From Paenibacillus riograndensis SBR5 (GTDB lineage Bacteria; Bacillota; Bacilli; Paenibacillales; Paenibacillaceae): a DNA stretch of 64,000 nucleotides. A program made the translations under genes and the position numbers. The notes beneath the pieces were generated by a model. It made no database searches. It was given only the letters and a program-made list of their open reading frames with translations, and had not been told where the DNA came from. The DNA lies in assembly GCF_000981585.1 (NCBI RefSeq), contig NZ_LN831776.1, positions 6,887,216 through 6,951,215 of the forward strand, written 5' to 3'. Positions 11,088 through 37,407 of the stretch are shown here, one piece after another (the stretch's first letter is position 1; every line of letters starts with the position of its first letter).

Positions 11088-11924
11088 TCAGCCTTTCATC
11101 GCGCCTGCAGTCAGGCCGTCAATCAGGAACCGCTGCAGAAATATGAAGAGCAGTGTTACCGGGAGAGCGACCAGAACCGCGCCTGCCGCGAACAGGGTGA
11201 ACTCGGTGGAATTGCTCTGATTCACCATGCGGAACAGGCCAACAGCAAGCGTCCTCTTCTCCTCTGTGCGCAGAATAAGGTCAGCGAATATAAAGTCCAC
11301 AAAGCAGCCGTTAAAGATCATCAGACTGGCATAGGTGAGCATTGGCTTCGACAGCGGCATCATGATGGAGAGGAACACTTTCATGTGGCTCGCCCCGTCT
11401 ATCCGCGCGGCATCCTCCAGGCTTTTCGGGATGGTGTCAAAGAAGCCTTTGGCTACAAAAACGTTCGTAATTATTGAGCCGCTGCTATAAACAAGCACAA
11501 GGGCCCAGTGCGAATTCAGCAGCCCCAGTGTGTTCAGCAGCACGTAAATGGCAATCATCGCCATGAATCCCGGGAACATTTGCAATACCAAAAACGCCGT
11601 CAGCATACTTTTTCTGCCCGCAAAACGATACCGGGATATAGCATAAGAGGCCAGCAGTAAAAGAGAGGTGCCGATGAGTGTCGAGAGCGCCGCAACTTTG
11701 AGTGTGTTCAGGAACCACTGCAGATACTTGGTCTGCTCAAACAATTCCTGGTAATGAACTAAGGTCATCCTGCGCGGAATCAAGGTGTCGCTGAACAGGC
11801 TGTTTCCCGTCTTGAACGAGGACATCACAATCCAAAAAGCGGGGAACAGGCTGATGAAGCTAAGCAGAATAAGCAAGGCATAGCTGCCAATCGTTTTTGC
11901 GGCTTCCTCCGGTTTCCGGTTCAT
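11088..11924 (-). CDS. malG: Maltodextrin ABC transporter permease MalG/MdxG
   Basis: A 278-residue integral membrane permease with six hydrophobic segments and the EAA loop (EDAARIDGASHMKVFLSIMMP) around residues 185-205, where the ATPase docks. It is most like MalG/MdxG, the second permease of maltose/maltodextrin importers. Its ATG overlaps the malF stop by four bases (ATGA), so the two are translationally coupled. No ATPase gene is present in the locus; a shared MsmX-like ATPase encoded elsewhere is likely, as in B. subtilis. Confidence 0.88.
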   Translation of the reverse strand: MNRKPEEAAKTIGSYALLILLSFISLFPAFWIVMSSFKTGNSLFSDTLIPRRMTLVHYQELFEQTKYLQWFLNTLKVAALSTLIGTSLLLLASYAISRYRFAGRKSMLTAFLVLQMFPGFMAMIAIYVLLNTLGLLNSHWALVLVYSSGSIITNVFVAKGFFDTIPKSLEDAARIDGASHMKVFLSIMMPLSKPMLTYASLMIFNGCFVDFIFADLILRTEEKRTLAVGLFRMVNQSNSTEFTLFAAGAVLVALPVTLLFIFLQRFLIDGLTAGAMKG

Positions 11925-13228
11925 GTAATCATGTCCTCCTCTTTATAGGATCGTGTCCGGCGGTAGCTCCAGATGGAGAATGTGGCAACCAGCAGGAAGA
12001 TGATAATTCCGATGACGGAAGCGAAGCTGTACTGCGATTGGTTCAGCGCCAATTTATACAGCCAGGTCACGAGCAGATCGGTGTCGCCCGCATACTGATA
12101 ATGGGGATTGACCGGCTCTCCGTTAGTCATAAGATAGATCACGTTAAAGCTGTTGATATTGCCTGCGAATTGCATAATGAGAATGGGGGCGGTTGCAAAA
12201 AGCACCATCGGCAATGTGATCATCCGGAACTTATGCGCCGATCCGGCACCGTCCACCTCAGCTGCCTCATACAAGTCCCGCGGTATGGTCGTCAGCACAC
12301 CGAAGGCAAGGATCATCGTAACCGGAATGCCGATCCACATGTTGGCCAGTATAACGGTGACTTTAGCCCAGAACGGGTCTGTCAGCCAAGGCAGGCCGTT
12401 CAGCCCAATCATCCCCAGATATTTATTGACCGGTCCGAACTGGTTGTTGAACATATTGCGCATCACGAGCAGCGAGATCATATTGGGAATGGCAAAAGGC
12501 ACGATCAGCAGAGTCCGCCACAGCTTTTTGAAGCGGACGCGCGGCTGGTGAATGAGCACTGCGACAAGGACCCCTCCGATGTAAGTCGTTACCGTGGCGA
12601 TCACCGCCCAGCACAAGGTCCATGTCAGAATACCGCCAAAAGTGGTGCTCCATACATCCAGGCTCAGCATCTTCTTAAAGTTGCCGAAGCCGACCCAGTC
12701 CACCAGATTAGCCGGGGGCAGAATCGGGTCCGCATAGTTTGTAAACGCCAGGAGGACCGAGAACACAAGCGGCAGGATCGTCAGAAAAACTATAGCCGTT
12801 AAGGGGATGGCCAGCACCAGATAGGCAAAATGTCTGCGGCCCATATACTTAAGCGATTGGCCAAAGGACCGGATCTGCTCCTGTCTCGCCCGCGCAGCTC
12901 CGACCATGAAGGCATCTCTGATATTCAGCAGATAAAATCCGCAGTACAAGAGCAGCGCAAGCAGGGCCATCAGGCCGTTAATCATCATGAAAATGGAGTG
13001 GTCGCCCTCTACCATCCGGGTCATTTTACCCACCTTGACCATGCGGCTTGGCAGCTCGCCTAATGTAATCAGACCGCGCAGATGACCGGTCAAACCATGG
13101 GTCATGAAATAGAACCAGGCCATACCCGTCAGCAGGAACGCCAGCCCTTTCAACCACTGCCTATTGTACATCTGGCCCAGGCCCGGGATTACAGCCGAAA
13201 GCACCGCTGCGCCTGTTTTTTTTGGCAT
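11921..13228 (-). CDS. malF: Maltodextrin ABC transporter permease MalF/MdxF
   Basis: A 435-residue permease. The N-terminal 120 residues contain two or three extra membrane segments (AVIPGLGQMYNRQWLKG), a feature of the MalF/MdxF branch, followed by a six-helix permease domain with the EAA loop (YEAAEVDGAGSAHKFRMITL) around residues 320-340. It pairs with MalG to form the membrane channel for maltodextrins. AGGTGATT precedes the ATG. It sits 19 bp after malE and overlaps malG by four bases. Confidence 0.88.
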   Translation of the reverse strand: MPKKTGAAVLSAVIPGLGQMYNRQWLKGLAFLLTGMAWFYFMTHGLTGHLRGLITLGELPSRMVKVGKMTRMVEGDHSIFMMINGLMALLALLLYCGFYLLNIRDAFMVGAARARQEQIRSFGQSLKYMGRRHFAYLVLAIPLTAIVFLTILPLVFSVLLAFTNYADPILPPANLVDWVGFGNFKKMLSLDVWSTTFGGILTWTLCWAVIATVTTYIGGVLVAVLIHQPRVRFKKLWRTLLIVPFAIPNMISLLVMRNMFNNQFGPVNKYLGMIGLNGLPWLTDPFWAKVTVILANMWIGIPVTMILAFGVLTTIPRDLYEAAEVDGAGSAHKFRMITLPMVLFATAPILIMQFAGNINSFNVIYLMTNGEPVNPHYQYAGDTDLLVTWLYKLALNQSQYSFASVIGIIIFLLVATFSIWSYRRTRSYKEEDMIT

Positions 13229-13247: not shown

Positions 13248-14570
13248 TTATTTCGACTCCAGATCGGACTGAATCGTCTTAACCGTCTGATCCATAGTCT
13301 GCTTGACATCAAGACCCGGATCATTCCACAAGGACACAAATGCGGCCTTCAAGGGTTCCCATACGGCGTTGATTTCTGATATGGCAGGCATTGGCACAGA
13401 GTGTTGGAACTGCTCAAAGAACCCGAGGGTAATGGGGTCATTTTTGATTTCTTGTGATTCTCCGGCTTCAATGCTTGCAGGGATCGCTCCGGTCATTTTA
13501 TAATTTTTAAGCTGATTGTCCTTGCTGCTGGCAAAATGTGCGAATAACCGGGCAGCAACGGGATAAGCGGTATAAGAGTTAACATAATAGGATTTGACGC
13601 CAGAAAAAGATATCATTTCCTCTCCGTTAGGCCCTTTTGGAAGCGGTACCACACCGAAGTTGACATGATCCTTGAACGACCCTGTGGACCACGGACCGTC
13701 AATGTTCATGGCAAGTTTCCCTTCCTGGAAAAGCTGGGTTTTTACGTCAAAGGTGATATCTCCCGCATTCAGCGGCAGGATTTTTTTCAGGCTCTGGAGA
13801 AAGGTGAACCCTTTGATTGTCCCTTCATTATTCAAACCGATATCCTTTGGATTGCTATTGCTGTCGCCAAAAATATAGCCGCCGAAGCTGCCGATAAACG
13901 GATACGTATAATACCCGACAAATTCCCACATGATTGCAAATTTATTTTCTTTCGGTTTGTTGTACGTATTGGCAAAAGCTATAATATCATTCCAGGTCTT
14001 GGGGGCCTCGGGAACCAGGTCCTTATTATAAAACAGCGCATAAGTCTCTACCGACTTGGGATAACCGTACAGAACCCCATCATAGGATGATGCCTGCACC
14101 GCTGTCTCCACCATGCTTGCTTTCGTTTCCTCCTCAAACACATCATTGGGCAACAGCAGACCGGCTTTGACGGCCTGGCTGATCTGGTCATGCGGAAGGG
14201 TCAGCACATCGGCCGCAAGCTTGGCTGGGCCATCCGTGGCCAGCCGTCCCCCCTGATCGCCACCCGCCAATTCTTCAACGTTGACGGGGACACCGTATTT
14301 TTTTTCAAAATCGGCGGCAACCCCCTTCATGTACTCAAGCTGCTCCTTGGCTTCCCAAACCATCAGCTTCGCTCCCTGCTCCGGCTCCATTTCCGGATCG
14401 GCGGTATTCTCTGGAGCAGAAGTTTCGGCAGTCTGGTTGTTCCCGCCCTTCGGGCTGGGGGCAGTATTCGGGCTGTTGGAGCTGCAGGCTGTGGCCGTCA
14501 TAACCAGAAGCATACATAGAACTACAATCTTTGATACCGCATTCATTTTGGAACGCTTAAATCTCTTCAT
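13248..14570 (-). CDS. malE: Maltodextrin-binding lipoprotein MalE/MdxE
   Basis: A 440-residue extracellular solute-binding protein. The N-terminal signal peptide ends in a lipobox (MTATAC, cysteine near residue 29) followed by a low-complexity Ser/Asn/Pro linker. The binding domain resembles family 1 maltose-binding proteins (YDKF-free but with LMVWEAKEQLEYMKG and FGVVPLPKGPNG). AGGGGAGA lies seven bases before the ATG at 14568-14570; the longer frame lacks a site. It is first in malE-malF-malG, and divergent from the GH13 enzyme. Transcription must pass a terminator-like leader before reaching the gene. Confidence 0.88.
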   Translation of the reverse strand: MKRFKRSKMNAVSKIVVLCMLLVMTATACSSNSPNTAPSPKGGNNQTAETSAPENTADPEMEPEQGAKLMVWEAKEQLEYMKGVAADFEKKYGVPVNVEELAGGDQGGRLATDGPAKLAADVLTLPHDQISQAVKAGLLLPNDVFEEETKASMVETAVQASSYDGVLYGYPKSVETYALFYNKDLVPEAPKTWNDIIAFANTYNKPKENKFAIMWEFVGYYTYPFIGSFGGYIFGDSNSNPKDIGLNNEGTIKGFTFLQSLKKILPLNAGDITFDVKTQLFQEGKLAMNIDGPWSTGSFKDHVNFGVVPLPKGPNGEEMISFSGVKSYYVNSYTAYPVAARLFAHFASSKDNQLKNYKMTGAIPASIEAGESQEIKNDPITLGFFEQFQHSVPMPAISEINAVWEPLKAAFVSLWNDPGLDVKQTMDQTVKTIQSDLESK

Positions 14571-14632: not shown

Positions 14633-14705
14633 TAAAAAAGGCACAACCCCTTTTGCACAAAGTGCCGAGGTTGTACCCTTACAGGTAACATTGCCTTTAA
14701 TTTAG
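14633..14705 (-). promoter_or_regulatory. malE leader: antiterminator/terminator attenuator
   Basis: Read on the minus strand, AAAGGCAATGTTACC is followed by AAGGGTACAACCTC and then a strong terminator: GGTACAACCTC (plus positions 14667-14677) pairs with GGGGTTGTGCC (14640-14650), with an inner GCAC-TTT-GTGC hairpin, then TTTTTT. An alternative upstream fold pairs AGG with CCT and CC with GG around a short loop; it shares the GGGTACAACCT bases with the terminator, so the two folds exclude each other. The arrangement matches the leader of the divergent GH13 gene. The regulator is not known. Confidence 0.7.
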
Positions 14706-14741
14706 TGTATTAATGAAATACCCAAGTTTGTTTGCCATCAT

Positions 14742-14779
14742 TTTATAATAACCGGAAATTCGAATGCAAGCGCTTTATT
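14742..14779 (-). promoter_or_regulatory. malE promoter candidate overlapped by a cre-like site
   Basis: On the minus strand, TTGCAT (14764-14769) and TATAAA (14742-14747) are 16 bp apart. The plus-strand sequence ATGCAAGCGCTTTATT at 14764-14779 matches the CcpA cre pattern (TGNAANCGN) except for one core base and overlaps the -35 box. LacI-type MalR could also bind such a site. A second start nearer the leader is possible. Confidence 0.5.
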
Positions 14780-14891
14780 TTAAAAATCCCTCCGTTTTTC
14801 CAAGCTTTCCATATTGTTTTCTTCCGATTTCTGCCATTATCTAAGTATATCTCCATTTTCCAACCCTCCCGGCTTAACAAAAATAAGACGC

Positions 14892-14921
14892 TTGCCATAA
14901 CCGGAAAACATGTGTTATGAT
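14892..14921 (+). promoter_or_regulatory. Promoter of the GH13 amylase gene
   Basis: TTGCCA at 14892-14897 and TATGAT at 14916-14921 are 18 bp apart. Transcription would begin near 14928, just before the conserved leader AAATTTAAAGGCAATG. Confidence 0.65.
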
Positions 14922-14930
14922 GCAGGAAAA

Positions 14931-14991
14931 TTTAAAGGCAATGAAACCGAAAGGGTTCAACCTCCACAATTGTGAGGTTGAACCTTTTTTT
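14931..14991 (+). promoter_or_regulatory. GH13 amylase leader: antiterminator/terminator attenuator
   Basis: The leader starts TTTAAAGGCAATG, then AAACC-GAAA-GGGTT. The terminator is near perfect: GGTTCAACCT (14954-14963) pairs with AGGTTGAACC (14975-14984), with CAC-AATT-GTG at the tip, followed by seven T. The 5' arm of the terminator also belongs to an upstream fold (GAAACC with GGGTTC around a GAAA loop; AGG with CCT), so the folds compete. The amylase ATG is only 32 bp after the T-run. The matching design on the divergent malE side suggests one shared trans-acting factor or ligand. Confidence 0.72.
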
Positions 14992-15022: not shown

Positions 15023-16774
15023 ATGATTCACCTGGAAAGCGTTTATCACCGGATGGGCCAGAACTGGTCCTATGCCTACGACGAGACTGTAATCCATATT
15101 CGCCTCCGGACGAAACGGGACGATGTATCACGGGTAGATTTGATTTGCGGAGACAAATACGGCTGGGACAGAACCCATTCCGAATATGCGATGGAACGTC
15201 TGTCCAGCGATAATTTGTTCGATTACTGGCAGGCTGCCGTTCGGCCGCCTCACCGCCGGCTGGCCTATTATTTTGCGCTGCACCAAGACGGAAATACAGT
15301 ATATTTTCTTGAAAAGGGGTTTCTGGAACATCCCCCTGAAATTATCTATGAGGGCTTATTTGACTTTCCAATACTGAGTCCTGAAGATGTGCACCAGCCG
15401 CCCGCTTGGGTGAAGGATGCTGTTTTTTATCAGATATTCCCGGAACGTTTCGCGAACGGGGACCCTTCCAATGATCCCGAAGGCGTATTGGAATGGGGGG
15501 GCACACCGAGCCCGACAAATTTTTTTGGCGGAGACCTGCAAGGCGTGCTGGAGCATTTGGATTATCTGTGCGCACTTGGCATTAACGCCATCTATTTTAA
15601 CCCGCTCTTCGCGGCAACCACCAATCACAAATACGACACTGCAGATTATTTAAGAATAGACCCCCATTTCGGGACAAATGAACTGCTGAAAGAACTTGTG
15701 GATGCTTGCCATGCAAAGGGAATCCGTGTGCTGCTGGACGGCGTATTTAACCATTGCGGCCATACCTTCCCCCCCTTTATGGATGTGCTGGAGAACGGGC
15801 GCGCTTCGCGTTATGCTGACTGGTTTCATGTGAAAGAGTGGCCTCCCGTCGTAAACGGAGGAATCCCTACCTATGATACCTTCGCCTTTGAGCCGATTAT
15901 GCCTAAATTTAACACAGCGAATCCGGAAGTCAAGGAATACCTGCTGAAGGTCGGCCGCTATTGGATTGAGGAAATCGGTGTGGACGGATGGCGCCTGGAT
16001 GTCGCCAATGAGGTTTCCCATCAATTCTGGCGCGATTTCCGCACGATGGTCAAACAGATCAATCCCGATGCTTATCTCGTTGGAGAAATCATGCATGATT
16101 CCTTGCCATGGCTGCTCGGAGACCAGTTCGACGCCGTAATGAATTATCAGCTGACGAACATGCTGCTGAACTTTTTTGCCCGTGGGCAGACCAGTGCCGG
16201 GCAGTTCTCGCGGTCGGTCGGAACTTTACTGGCCAATTATCCGCAGCAGATTACGGAAGTCTCCTTTAATTTGCTGGACAGCCACGATACCGTACGTTTC
16301 CTGACCCTGTGCGGCGGGGATATCCGGCGTCTGAAACTGGCCTTTCTGTTCCTGATGACCTATCAGGGCACGCCTTGTATTTATTACGGGGATGAAATCG
16401 GCATGGATGGGGAGTATGATCCACACAACCGGAAATGCATGGAATGGGAACCCCGGAAACAGAATCAGGACCTGCTGGAGTATTACCGCTGGGCTATCCG
16501 GCTGCGCAAAGCGAACTCCGCATTCCGCAGCAGTGCGATTAAATTTCTTGAACACCCGGAGCACCCGGAGCTGCTTGTTTATGAACGGTGGGATGAGCAC
16601 GACCGGTTCCTGGTAATCATGAACAACTCCGAACTTCCCATAGACGCCCACATTTCAGCGCTTAAACCAGAAAGCACCTGGATCAATCTGGAGCTCCAGC
16701 AGCCGGCAGACATCGGGGAACGGGGACAGCTCCAGCTGCCCGCCTACGGATATGTGATTCTTCGCGAGACTTAA
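15023..16774 (+). CDS. GH13 maltogenic amylase / neopullulanase / cyclomaltodextrinase
   Basis: A 583-residue intracellular enzyme with no signal peptide. An N-terminal CBM34-like domain (about 1-125) is followed by a GH13 barrel with all conserved regions: [21 protein letters not shown] (nucleophile Asp), [11 protein letters not shown] (acid Glu), [12 protein letters not shown]. Length and N-terminal domain match the GH13_20 group, which hydrolyses maltodextrins, cyclodextrins and pullulan in the cytosol. AAGGGA precedes the ATG at 15023; an upstream in-frame start lies inside the terminator hairpin. Placed divergently from malEFG, it would cut the imported dextrins. Exact specificity within the group is uncertain. 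Confidence 0.88.
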
Positions 16775-18082: not shown

Positions 18083-18853
18083 TCAATAGGATGAATTCGC
18101 CATGATCTGCTTCAGCTTTTCTGTAGCCCGTTTTTGAATCCGCGATACGCTCATTTGCGACACTCCAAGCTTCTGGGCAATGGCACGCTGTGACTGGCCA
18201 TCCTGGAAAGCCAGCAGCAGCACCTGCTGCTCCTGTTCTTTCAGTTGTCCCAGAGCCTGCTGCAGGTCCATTCGCTTCTCCACGGTCTCATAATCATTGG
18301 CTTCAGAGCTGATGAGTTCCCCAAGAGTAGCACCTGTCTCCTCTTGAGAAAGCGGGGAATCCAGGGATACGTAATGGTAACACTCTCTTCCGGCCAGGAC
18401 TTCGACTGTTTCTTCTACGGTAAGATCAAGATAATGGGCAATTTCCTCAACTGCAGGAGAACGTTCCAATCTGATGGTTAGCTCATCAATGGCCTGCTGA
18501 ACAAGGGCACCCTTCTCTTTGATCCTTCTAGGAACCTGTATGTACCAGGATTTGTCGCGCAGAAAATTTTTCATATGCCCGATCATGCTTTTCATAGCAT
18601 AAGGCTCAAACGGAATTCCCAGGCTGATGTCATATTGCTGCAGCAGTCTAATCAGCGCCATTTGGCCTACCTGATACAGATCTTCATAAAGGTCAGGACG
18701 GTTGCGGGCAATCTTCCCGGCAGCCATCTTCACCATCGGTTCATATTTCCGGATCAAAGCTGTTGCAATTTCATTATCTTTGGTCTGCTGGTATTCCCAG
18801 ATCAGACTTACCGCTTCGTTCATGGACTCAGGGGGAGTCACTTTTTCGTTCAT
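18083..18853 (-). CDS. sigB: RNA polymerase sigma-B factor
   Basis: A 256-residue sigma-70 family factor of the SigB/SigF/SigG group. Region 2 (DLYEDLYQVGQMALIRLLQQYD), region 3 (VPRRIKEKGALVQQAIDEL) and region 4 with its helix-turn-helix (QRAIAQKLGVSQMSVSRIQ) are all present. It directs transcription of general stress genes when freed from RsbW. Its ATG overlaps the rsbW stop by four bases. It is the last gene of a seven-gene operon. The position after rsbV-rsbW distinguishes it from sporulation factor SigF. Confidence 0.92.
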   Translation of the reverse strand: MNEKVTPPESMNEAVSLIWEYQQTKDNEIATALIRKYEPMVKMAAGKIARNRPDLYEDLYQVGQMALIRLLQQYDISLGIPFEPYAMKSMIGHMKNFLRDKSWYIQVPRRIKEKGALVQQAIDELTIRLERSPAVEEIAHYLDLTVEETVEVLAGRECYHYVSLDSPLSQEETGATLGELISSEANDYETVEKRMDLQQALGQLKEQEQQVLLLAFQDGQSQRAIAQKLGVSQMSVSRIQKRATEKLKQIMANSSY

Positions 18854-19302
18854 ACCTTCTCCTCGCTGAAATTAAGCCGTTTGGTCAGGGTTACGACTGT
18901 CCCTTTTCCTGCTTCGCTCACAACGCTAACGTCATCCATGAGCGCTTGCATTAGGTAAAATCCCAGCCCGCCTACCTGAACATCATTCAGCTCTTTGTCA
19001 TGCAGCGTCATGCGTTCACCGGACGCATCCATACCGTCAAAGCTCTCCCCCTCATCTTTGACCGTGATGGACAAGGCACTTGATCCAACTTCAAAGATTA
19101 CGTCAACCAAACCGTCTTCCTGACCGTAGGCATAGAGTACAGAATTGTTACAGGCTTCCGATACAGCTACTTTCATATCCTCAATGTCCTCATAAGTAAA
19201 ACCCATCTTGGAGGCAATGCCATATAAATTCAATCTGACGATATCGACATATTCTGCGCTTGCGGGTAACTGAAGAACTACTTTTTGCACGTCATCACTC
19301 AT
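18850..19302 (-). CDS. rsbW: Anti-sigma-B factor / serine kinase RsbW
   Basis: A 150-residue GHKL-type kinase: N-box EACNNSVLYAYG around residues 50-60, G1 box VKDEGESFDG and G2 box VGGLGFYLMQALMDDV. RsbW binds SigB to hold it inactive and phosphorylates RsbV. The ORF overlaps sigB by four bases and follows rsbV by 18 bp, so stoichiometric expression is expected. Confidence 0.92.
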   Translation of the reverse strand: MSDDVQKVVLQLPASAEYVDIVRLNLYGIASKMGFTYEDIEDMKVAVSEACNNSVLYAYGQEDGLVDVIFEVGSSALSITVKDEGESFDGMDASGERMTLHDKELNDVQVGGLGFYLMQALMDDVSVVSEAGKGTVVTLTKRLNFSEEKV

Positions 19303-37111: not shown

Positions 37112-37407
37112 AAGATAGCCTCATCATACCTAGGATGAGGTAGAGGTCGCGGATATAAAGAGTACGCGCGAGGAGACGCTATAAGAGCCGTCTGTGAAAC
37201 GCCGCCGAAAGGAATATCCGCCGAAGTCTGCGCCGCTGCTCTTATTATGCTGCGCCGGCTGGGGCCGTTGCCGAAAGGTACGGAACTGTCACAGGGCATG
37301 GCCCGTCAGGAAACTGCGTCCAGGCACTGTGTTGCGCTATCTGAACAGGGAGTATGGTGCGGAGCTGTAAATACGAAAACCGCAGAATCTGTCTGCGGTT
37401 TTTTTAC
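37112..37407 (+). promoter_or_regulatory. Lysine riboswitch (L box) with terminator
   Basis: The conserved L-box pieces appear in order: GGTAGAGGTCGCGG, AGTA, GAGGAGACGC, TGTGAAACGCCGCCGAAAGG (37193-37212), CCGCCGAAG, GGGGCCG, GCCGAAAGG, AACTGTCACAGGGC, AGGAAACTGC and GCGCTATC at 37335-37342, which can close the basal stem with GATAGC near 37114. An expression platform follows: AAAACCGCAGA...TCTGCGGTTTTTTT (37376-37407). In this class lysine binding favours the terminator. The downstream permease is therefore expected to be made when lysine is scarce. The basal stem of this copy contains an extra CCTCATCATACC...GGATGAGG hairpin. Confidence 0.92.

Follow-up and report, generated by a model that had tools for sequence, protein, structure and literature searches.

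A conserved leader element with two alternative predicted folds precedes amylase, sugar importer and nucleotidyltransferase genes in Paenibacillus and other Bacilli

A leader element of about 37 nucleotides looks like an undescribed cis-regulatory RNA family with defined target genes, extending across Paenibacillus, Cohnella and several other Bacilli. Two copies lie back to back between divergent genes in the window (the whole 64,000-nucleotide stretch of DNA analysed here, which comes from the 7.92-Mb, single-contig genome of Paenibacillus riograndensis SBR5). In each leader, the element consists of AAAGGCAATG, a short ACC/GGT hairpin and CAACCTCG. The hairpin is followed by CAACCTC and then by a strong terminator, for which the 3' half of the element doubles as the 5' arm (GGTNCAACCTC in both window leaders). 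A switch as such is probable, whether its factor is a protein or the ligand of a small-molecule aptamer, and a factor-dependent antiterminator appears to be the best fit. We tentatively prefer, with slightly less than even confidence, the more specific reading in which each leader is an ON-type transcription attenuator that would be opened by an RNA-binding protein from a family with no known link to antitermination.

The features of the locus are given below in window coordinates, where R1 denotes a covariance model built from 18 leaders.

14665..14703, minus strand: R1 element in the leader of the malE-type operon (R1 match, 58.9 bits)
14929..14966, plus strand: R1 element in the leader of the GH13 amylase gene (R1 match, 54.2 bits)
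14668..14696, minus strand: putative antiterminator hairpin of the malE leader, with P1 AGG/CCU, internal loop CAA/A, and P2 UG/CA plus a bulge plus UACC/GGUA (from nascent-chain folds and P2 covariation)
14936..14963, plus strand: putative antiterminator hairpin of the amylase leader, with P1 AGG/CCU, internal loop CAA/A, and P2 UG/CA plus a bulge plus AACC/GGUU (from the covariation model)
14634..14680, minus strand: intrinsic terminator of the malE leader, its 5' arm common with the hairpin, six T after it (fold -24.8 kcal/mol, z -3.33)
14949..14991, plus strand: intrinsic terminator of the amylase leader, seven T at its end (fold -24.4 kcal/mol, z -5.07)
14892..14921, plus strand: promoter of the amylase gene, TTGCCA-18-TATGAT, with TG ahead of the second hexamer (the only site in the scanned 14 kb to reach 10 of 12 matches)
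14742..14769, minus strand: possible promoter for the malE-type operon, TTGCAT-16-TATAAA (picked out by eye)
13248..14570, minus strand: sugar ABC transporter binding protein, malE-type, the first gene after the leader (PF13416/PF01547)
11088..13228, minus strand: two permease genes of the same operon, putatively malF/malG-type (open reading frames 11921-13228 and 11088-11924)
15023..16774, plus strand: GH13 amylase of the neopullulanase/cyclomaltodextrinase type, after the second leader (PF02903, PF00128, PF16657)

A first-pass annotation of this DNA had proposed two matching terminator/antiterminator leaders, and the proposal holds up. The window contains two copies of the joint pattern AAAGGCAATG-NN-ACC-N4..8-GGT-N-CAACCTC and no more, at 14667-14698 (minus strand) and 14934-14964 (plus strand), none of 100 shuffles contains it, and both leaders give strong terminator folds. 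By itself, AAAGGCAATG is not rare, with six occurrences in the window against 7.65 expected when one mismatch is permitted. A simple terminator scan lists neither window terminator, though both fold strongly. The scan of 14 kb for promoters returned 19 sites in total, which is not above the number in shuffles (mean 17.3).

The gene that follows the minus-strand leader had been named malE. It does encode an ABC sugar binding protein, but its NCBIfam scores are below cut-off both for the best match, GanS (galacto-oligosaccharide; 268 bits, cut-off 700), and for the next, MalE (177 bits, cut-off 291). The ‘maltodextrin’ label therefore rests mainly on the adjoining neopullulanase-type gene. The window permeases are akin to proteins encoded next to the GH13 gene of another leader locus (L187). 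By eye, LacI/CcpA-like operator sequences (GCAAGCGCTT at 14765-14777 and GACGCTTGCC at 14887-14896) overlap the -35 regions of the divergent promoters, and palindromes resembling such operators are also present in other divergent loci. Four of the 15 neighbourhoods compared contain LacI-type genes, as judged by eye and from mutual similarity. Given such operators and regulator genes, substrate induction may already happen at the promoter, and the leader RNA may read a second signal.

Conservation of the element is sharply bounded. Among 133 distinct elements, the information content is 1.4-2.0 bits at 23 of 33 aligned positions, compared with 0.01-0.38 bits over the 30 bases upstream and 0.01-0.43 bits over the first 20 bases downstream. 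AAAGGC, the TG two bases further on and CAACCTCG are near-invariant in a set of 113 distinct elements, where variation is greatest at the first A, replaced by G in 11, and at the final G, replaced in 8. The lower pairs, AGG/CCU (P1) and UG/CA, are invariant except for one G-U, so covariation bears on the upper stem only.

The upper stem mostly keeps its pairing while varying in these 113 elements, which were collected with the R1 model itself and come in many cases from close relatives, so that the counts lean towards the model. Its first pair is TA in 60, AT in 49 and AA in 4; the second is AT in 100, GT in 3, GC in 1 and unpaired in 9; the third is CG in 105, TG in 4 and unpaired in 4; and the fourth is CG in 88, TG in 22, TA in 1 and GG in 2. 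The A-T/T-A exchange that had been noticed between the two window hairpins is real, and divides the 18 seed leaders 10 to 8. None of 500 pair shuffles reaches the observed covariation score in each of three tests, and pairing is lost when the partners are slid out of register. Doubly changed pairs and pair-type counts discriminate less well, being reached by all 500 shuffles in two of the tests and by 5 and 126 of 500, respectively, in the third; one upper-stem pair carries most of the covariation. Terminal loops are anywhere between 3 and 45 nucleotides long, and recognition should therefore involve the stem together with the internal loop, as it does in RAT sites bound by protein.

One base, W' in GGT-W'-CAACC, has two alternative partners: W when the upstream hairpin forms, and W'' when the terminator does. 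These contacts were followed in 162 leaders, which are the 164 collected less L173, whose 31-bit match in G503 looks spurious (without a fitting gene or terminator), and L084, which is without a gene of reference type and has no evident terminator. The same two are likewise excluded from the 113 and the 133 distinct elements. A T-run is present in 155 of the 162, and 7 are without a clear one. Among the 155, the W/W'/W'' combinations are T/A/T in 75, A/T/G in 54 and A/T/A in 16, so that the shared base covaries with both alternative partners in 145; the remaining 10 are A/A/T (4), A/T/unpaired (4) and T/A/unpaired (2). This double covariation is, as judged from aligned sequences, the best comparative evidence in our analysis that both folds would be used.

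Nascent-chain folding of the window leaders agrees, with the upstream hairpin appearing first and being displaced once the terminator 3' arm is present. In the amylase leader, the minimum-energy nascent fold has UGA/UCA and CC/GG pairs, a slight variant of the hairpin in the covariation model. The earlier suggestion that the upstream fold and the terminator exclude each other is thereby corroborated, and an intrinsic terminator exclusive with the hairpin, as RAT-type elements have, is found here by comparison and folding. Hairpin energy alone is unremarkable (z -2.49, with 7 of 200 shuffles as good, for the amylase leader; z 0.00, with 96 of 200 as good, for the malE leader). The median fold is -22.9 kcal/mol for the terminator versus -5.0 for the element alone. 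A terminator so much stronger than the hairpin should win unaided, which suggests that expression would be off by default and turned on by a factor. We infer both this direction and the existence of the factor.

We hypothesize the following sequence of events. In the commonest arrangement, RNA polymerase would start at or just ahead of the element; a promoter-like site (at least 9 of 12 matches) lies within about 100 bases upstream of 135 of 162 leaders, compared with 37 of 162 shuffled ones, and ends 12-15 bases ahead of the A of AAAGG in 65 of the 135. The transcript AAAGGCAAUG...GGUNCAACCUCG could then form a short hairpin whose internal loop is asymmetric. Some 25 nucleotides later, the 3' half of this hairpin, GGUNCAACC, would be captured by the far stronger terminator stem, and transcription would stop. 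A trans-acting factor might recognise the internal loop of the hairpin together with the invariant bases that flank it, and a hairpin held in this way would keep the terminator from forming, so that the downstream genes would be transcribed.

The terminators could also be constitutive. It is improbable, in our estimate, that attenuation is set by a general factor (polymerase speed, for instance, or a protein of the cold-shock or Nus type), or that the leader is a constitutive partial terminator, because the 5' half of the element is strictly conserved though the terminator does not need it, which suggests specific recognition. Such an account would nonetheless accommodate a downstream gene set that is functionally mixed over several genera of Bacilli and, since factors of this kind are universal, would predict no particular gene neighbourhood. 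The conserved 5' half also includes the ATG of AAAGGCAATG, from which a leader peptide could be translated so that ribosome stalling would control the terminator. This triplet is ATG in 149 of 162 leaders, CTG in 12 and TTG in 1, and the reading frames are not conserved: they range from 1 to 145 codons, with an immediate stop after the ATG in 47 of the 149. The spacing in AAAGG-CA-ATG is moreover too short for good translation initiation. A leader peptide was accordingly rejected, and we regard it as the least credible of the explanations weighed here.

The element is common among relatives of the window's genome. At the genus level, R1 matched 96 of 100 genomes (E<=0.1), at the order level 152 of 296 (E<=0.01) and at the class level 36 of 398 (E<=0.001, own genome counted); the leader that the first-pass annotation knew from one locus is thus conserved in relatives when searched with a covariance model. 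The class matches outside the order lie in eight Bacilli genomes, G608 among them; seven are credible, and the one that looks spurious is G503. In a phylum sample, R1 matched 6 of 398 genomes, all of the window's own family, so spread beyond Bacilli is not seen in this 398-genome sample. The strict joint pattern has copies in 22 of 60 genomes, own genome counted, and was not found in viral contigs. A scan of named genomes gave at least 120 stretches, and the genera among the 80 listed are Paenibacillus, Cohnella, Bacillus, Peribacillus, Robertmurraya, Neobacillus, Evansella and Thermobacillus.

The window's genome holds four credible copies. In addition to the two in the window, a third, found by the strict pattern, precedes a nucleotidyltransferase gene, and a fourth, at G000:C1:2646716-2646756, precedes a second GH13 gene. 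Divergent leader pairs are present in 13 genomes, the window's counted; 965 nucleotides separate the two leaders in the pair of L098, and in the pairs of L015 and L161 the malE-type gene is cut off at the end of the locus.

The genes behind the 164 leaders encode GH13 enzymes (84), the nucleotidyltransferase (56), MalE-type binding proteins (13), PF00756 esterases (2) and a MATE transporter (1), and 8 are of none of the reference types. The GH13 count includes L107, although the CBM48-type GH13 gene there, after a broken nucleotidyltransferase copy, matches weakly (19.6% identity). The eight unclassed leaders comprise L173 and L084; L015 and L161, which by eye are malE-type; L132, with an apparent nucleotidyltransferase remnant by eye; L166; and L154 and L168, for which no explanation was found. 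At least 81 matches from named genomes, a set that overlaps with the 164 leaders, are distributed as follows (GH13 39, nucleotidyltransferase 28, MalE 10, gene incomplete 2, none 2). One leader each was seen ahead of a gene for an AraC regulator (L344), one for a D-Ala-D-Ala carboxypeptidase (L279) and a further type of GH13 gene (L218). The large nucleotidyltransferase class, the second largest, argues against a purely maltodextrin signal, and with esterases, MATE, AraC and carboxypeptidase genes also among the targets, the original idea of a switch specific to maltodextrin is not supported in that form.

The nucleotidyltransferase tested had no Pfam match. Its profile has a weak likeness to Lnu(F/G/H), its similarity to a solved lincosamide nucleotidyltransferase is weak (E 0.0057), and several relatives bear the source name ‘lincosamide nucleotidyltransferase’. 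As a universal regulator acting on the element, this protein was rejected, since it was matched in just 23 of 66 element genomes, one match being a 49-residue fragment. The leader persists at broken, split or apparently decayed nucleotidyltransferase copies (L107, L132, L138 and L122), and in G608 (L166/L178) a transposase-like gene, of the IS110 type by eye, separates the leader from the nucleotidyltransferase gene. In G000, G598 and G630, the nucleotidyltransferase under leader control has a MATE-type gene a short way upstream; in G001, the leader is directly before a MATE gene, and that nucleotidyltransferase was not found there (the MATE-adjoining leaders are L001, L185, L186 and L191).

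The design resembles that of the RAT leaders of BglG/SacY/LicT, as had been pointed out, in that both have an imperfect hairpin of about 30 nucleotides with a GG/CC base, a 3' half common with the terminator and sugar-use genes downstream. The element differs in its internal loops (CNA/A plus a one-base bulge), which are laid out unlike those of a RAT, in serving an ABC importer rather than the PTS, and in having non-sugar genes among its targets. Mismatches number 8-13 over 23 positions when the 162 leaders are set against the RAT consensus, GGATTGTTACTG-N6/7-CAGGCGAGACC as stated in the relevant passage of PMC12628678, and 160 shuffled leaders, to which the filter that removed L173 and L084 was not applied, likewise have 8-13. 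Eight mismatches, the lowest number, are seen in 11 of 162 leaders versus 1 of 160 shuffled. Five of the seven loci with CAT_RBD genes in the window's genome were examined: against that same stated consensus, four have RAT sites with 0, 1, 4 and 5 mismatches and the fifth has 8, and R1 has no match at any of the five.

No BglG-type gene had been noted in the window, but the genome itself has seven CAT_RBD matches. CAT_RBD was found in 44 of the 66 genomes with an R1 match and had no match in 22; the leader itself was read in 14 of these 22 and, among the 66, some leaders were read (one of the 66, G503, has a spurious R1 match and does have CAT). With leaders about as far from the quoted consensus as shuffles and a third of hosts without a CAT_RBD match, a divergent RAT is already refuted as a general account. 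We consider it very improbable that the element is such a site, even with its similar size, position and logic, the CAT_RBD genes of the window's genome and the excess of leaders at the low end of the mismatch range.

Two other antiterminator families were searched for in 23 genomes (the 22 without a CAT_RBD match plus the window's own). GlpP leaders are a known case in which carbon-source genes of Bacillota are positively controlled via antitermination. GlpP was rejected as the general factor, as G3P_antiterm (PF04309) had no match in 5 of the 23; none of the 156 classed leaders is at a glycerol gene, a comparison in which glycerol genes are absent from the references and 8 of the 164 leaders are unclassed. 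ANTAR targets were judged by the presence of an ANTAR protein and of two hexaloop hairpins with A1 and G4. The ANTAR-domain dual-hexaloop attenuators (EutV, NasR), as described in a passage of PMC8934654, are like the element in having a hairpin that excludes a terminator. They were rejected since PF03861 had no match in 9 of the 23 genomes and the element has a single hairpin with a loop of 3-45 nucleotides, not two hexaloops. G598 and G040 are without CAT, GlpP and ANTAR matches alike. Because each family is missing from some hosts, identifying the sensor could bring to light either a new antiterminator protein or a riboswitch class not yet described.

The leaders had no match in Rfam 15 at the gathering score, in keeping with the early suspicion that the RNA is new; permissive filters gave three matches at chance level, the best being a snoRNA under its cut-off (E 0.08). 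A literature search of titles and abstract openings found no description of the element, and the passages with term matches in PMC11109978, PMC8632094, PMC5670726 and PMC2965389 do not concern it.

Small ON riboswitches that prevent a terminator, such as guanidine-IV/mepA and preQ1-I, are alike in size class and antitermination logic; the element differs in having no Rfam match and no evident pseudoknot. A small-molecule riboswitch, in which the internal loop and flanking AA/CG bases would bind a metabolite and the bound hairpin would block termination, is possible but in our judgement unlikely. High conservation at 23 of 33 positions speaks for it, as does the lone credible copy, ahead of a nucleotidyltransferase gene, in distant Bacilli such as G522 and G598. 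The genes listed in 15 neighbourhoods of 16-19 kb, which were judged by eye and from mutual similarity, included none for an RNA-binding regulator that recurred, and none of the three known antiterminator families is universal in hosts. The MATE and nucleotidyltransferase targets also resemble the detoxification genes that known riboswitches control. The aptamer would however be very small, with one asymmetric internal loop of about four bases, one of them variable, and a terminal loop of free length, and there is no obvious ligand that would be common to genes for an amylase, an importer, a nucleotidyltransferase, a MATE transporter and an esterase.

Small size, indifference to loop length and catabolic target genes favour an RNA-binding protein, the reading that we prefer, while a ligand or a universal factor fits better with single-gene occurrences that are scattered and with neighbourhoods in which no RNA-binding gene was seen to recur. 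We give an even chance to the broader proposal that the element is the target of a new RNA sensor class, be it an antiterminator protein family not seen before or a riboswitch that is among the smallest, which would switch on maltodextrin import and hydrolysis plus the nucleotidyltransferase in many Bacilli; this would hint at one signal common to oligosaccharide use and detoxification. The proposed switch is a simple one and open to testing, and common control with a sugar hydrolase could reveal the role of the lincosamide-nucleotidyltransferase-like enzyme.

Elsewhere in the window, genes named by eye as a sigma-B-type sigma factor and an anti-sigma kinase (18083-19302) come after the amylase locus on the opposite strand. 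The sole Rfam match in the window at the gathering score is a lysine riboswitch (RF00168) at 37133-37347 on the plus strand, with 79.9 bits.
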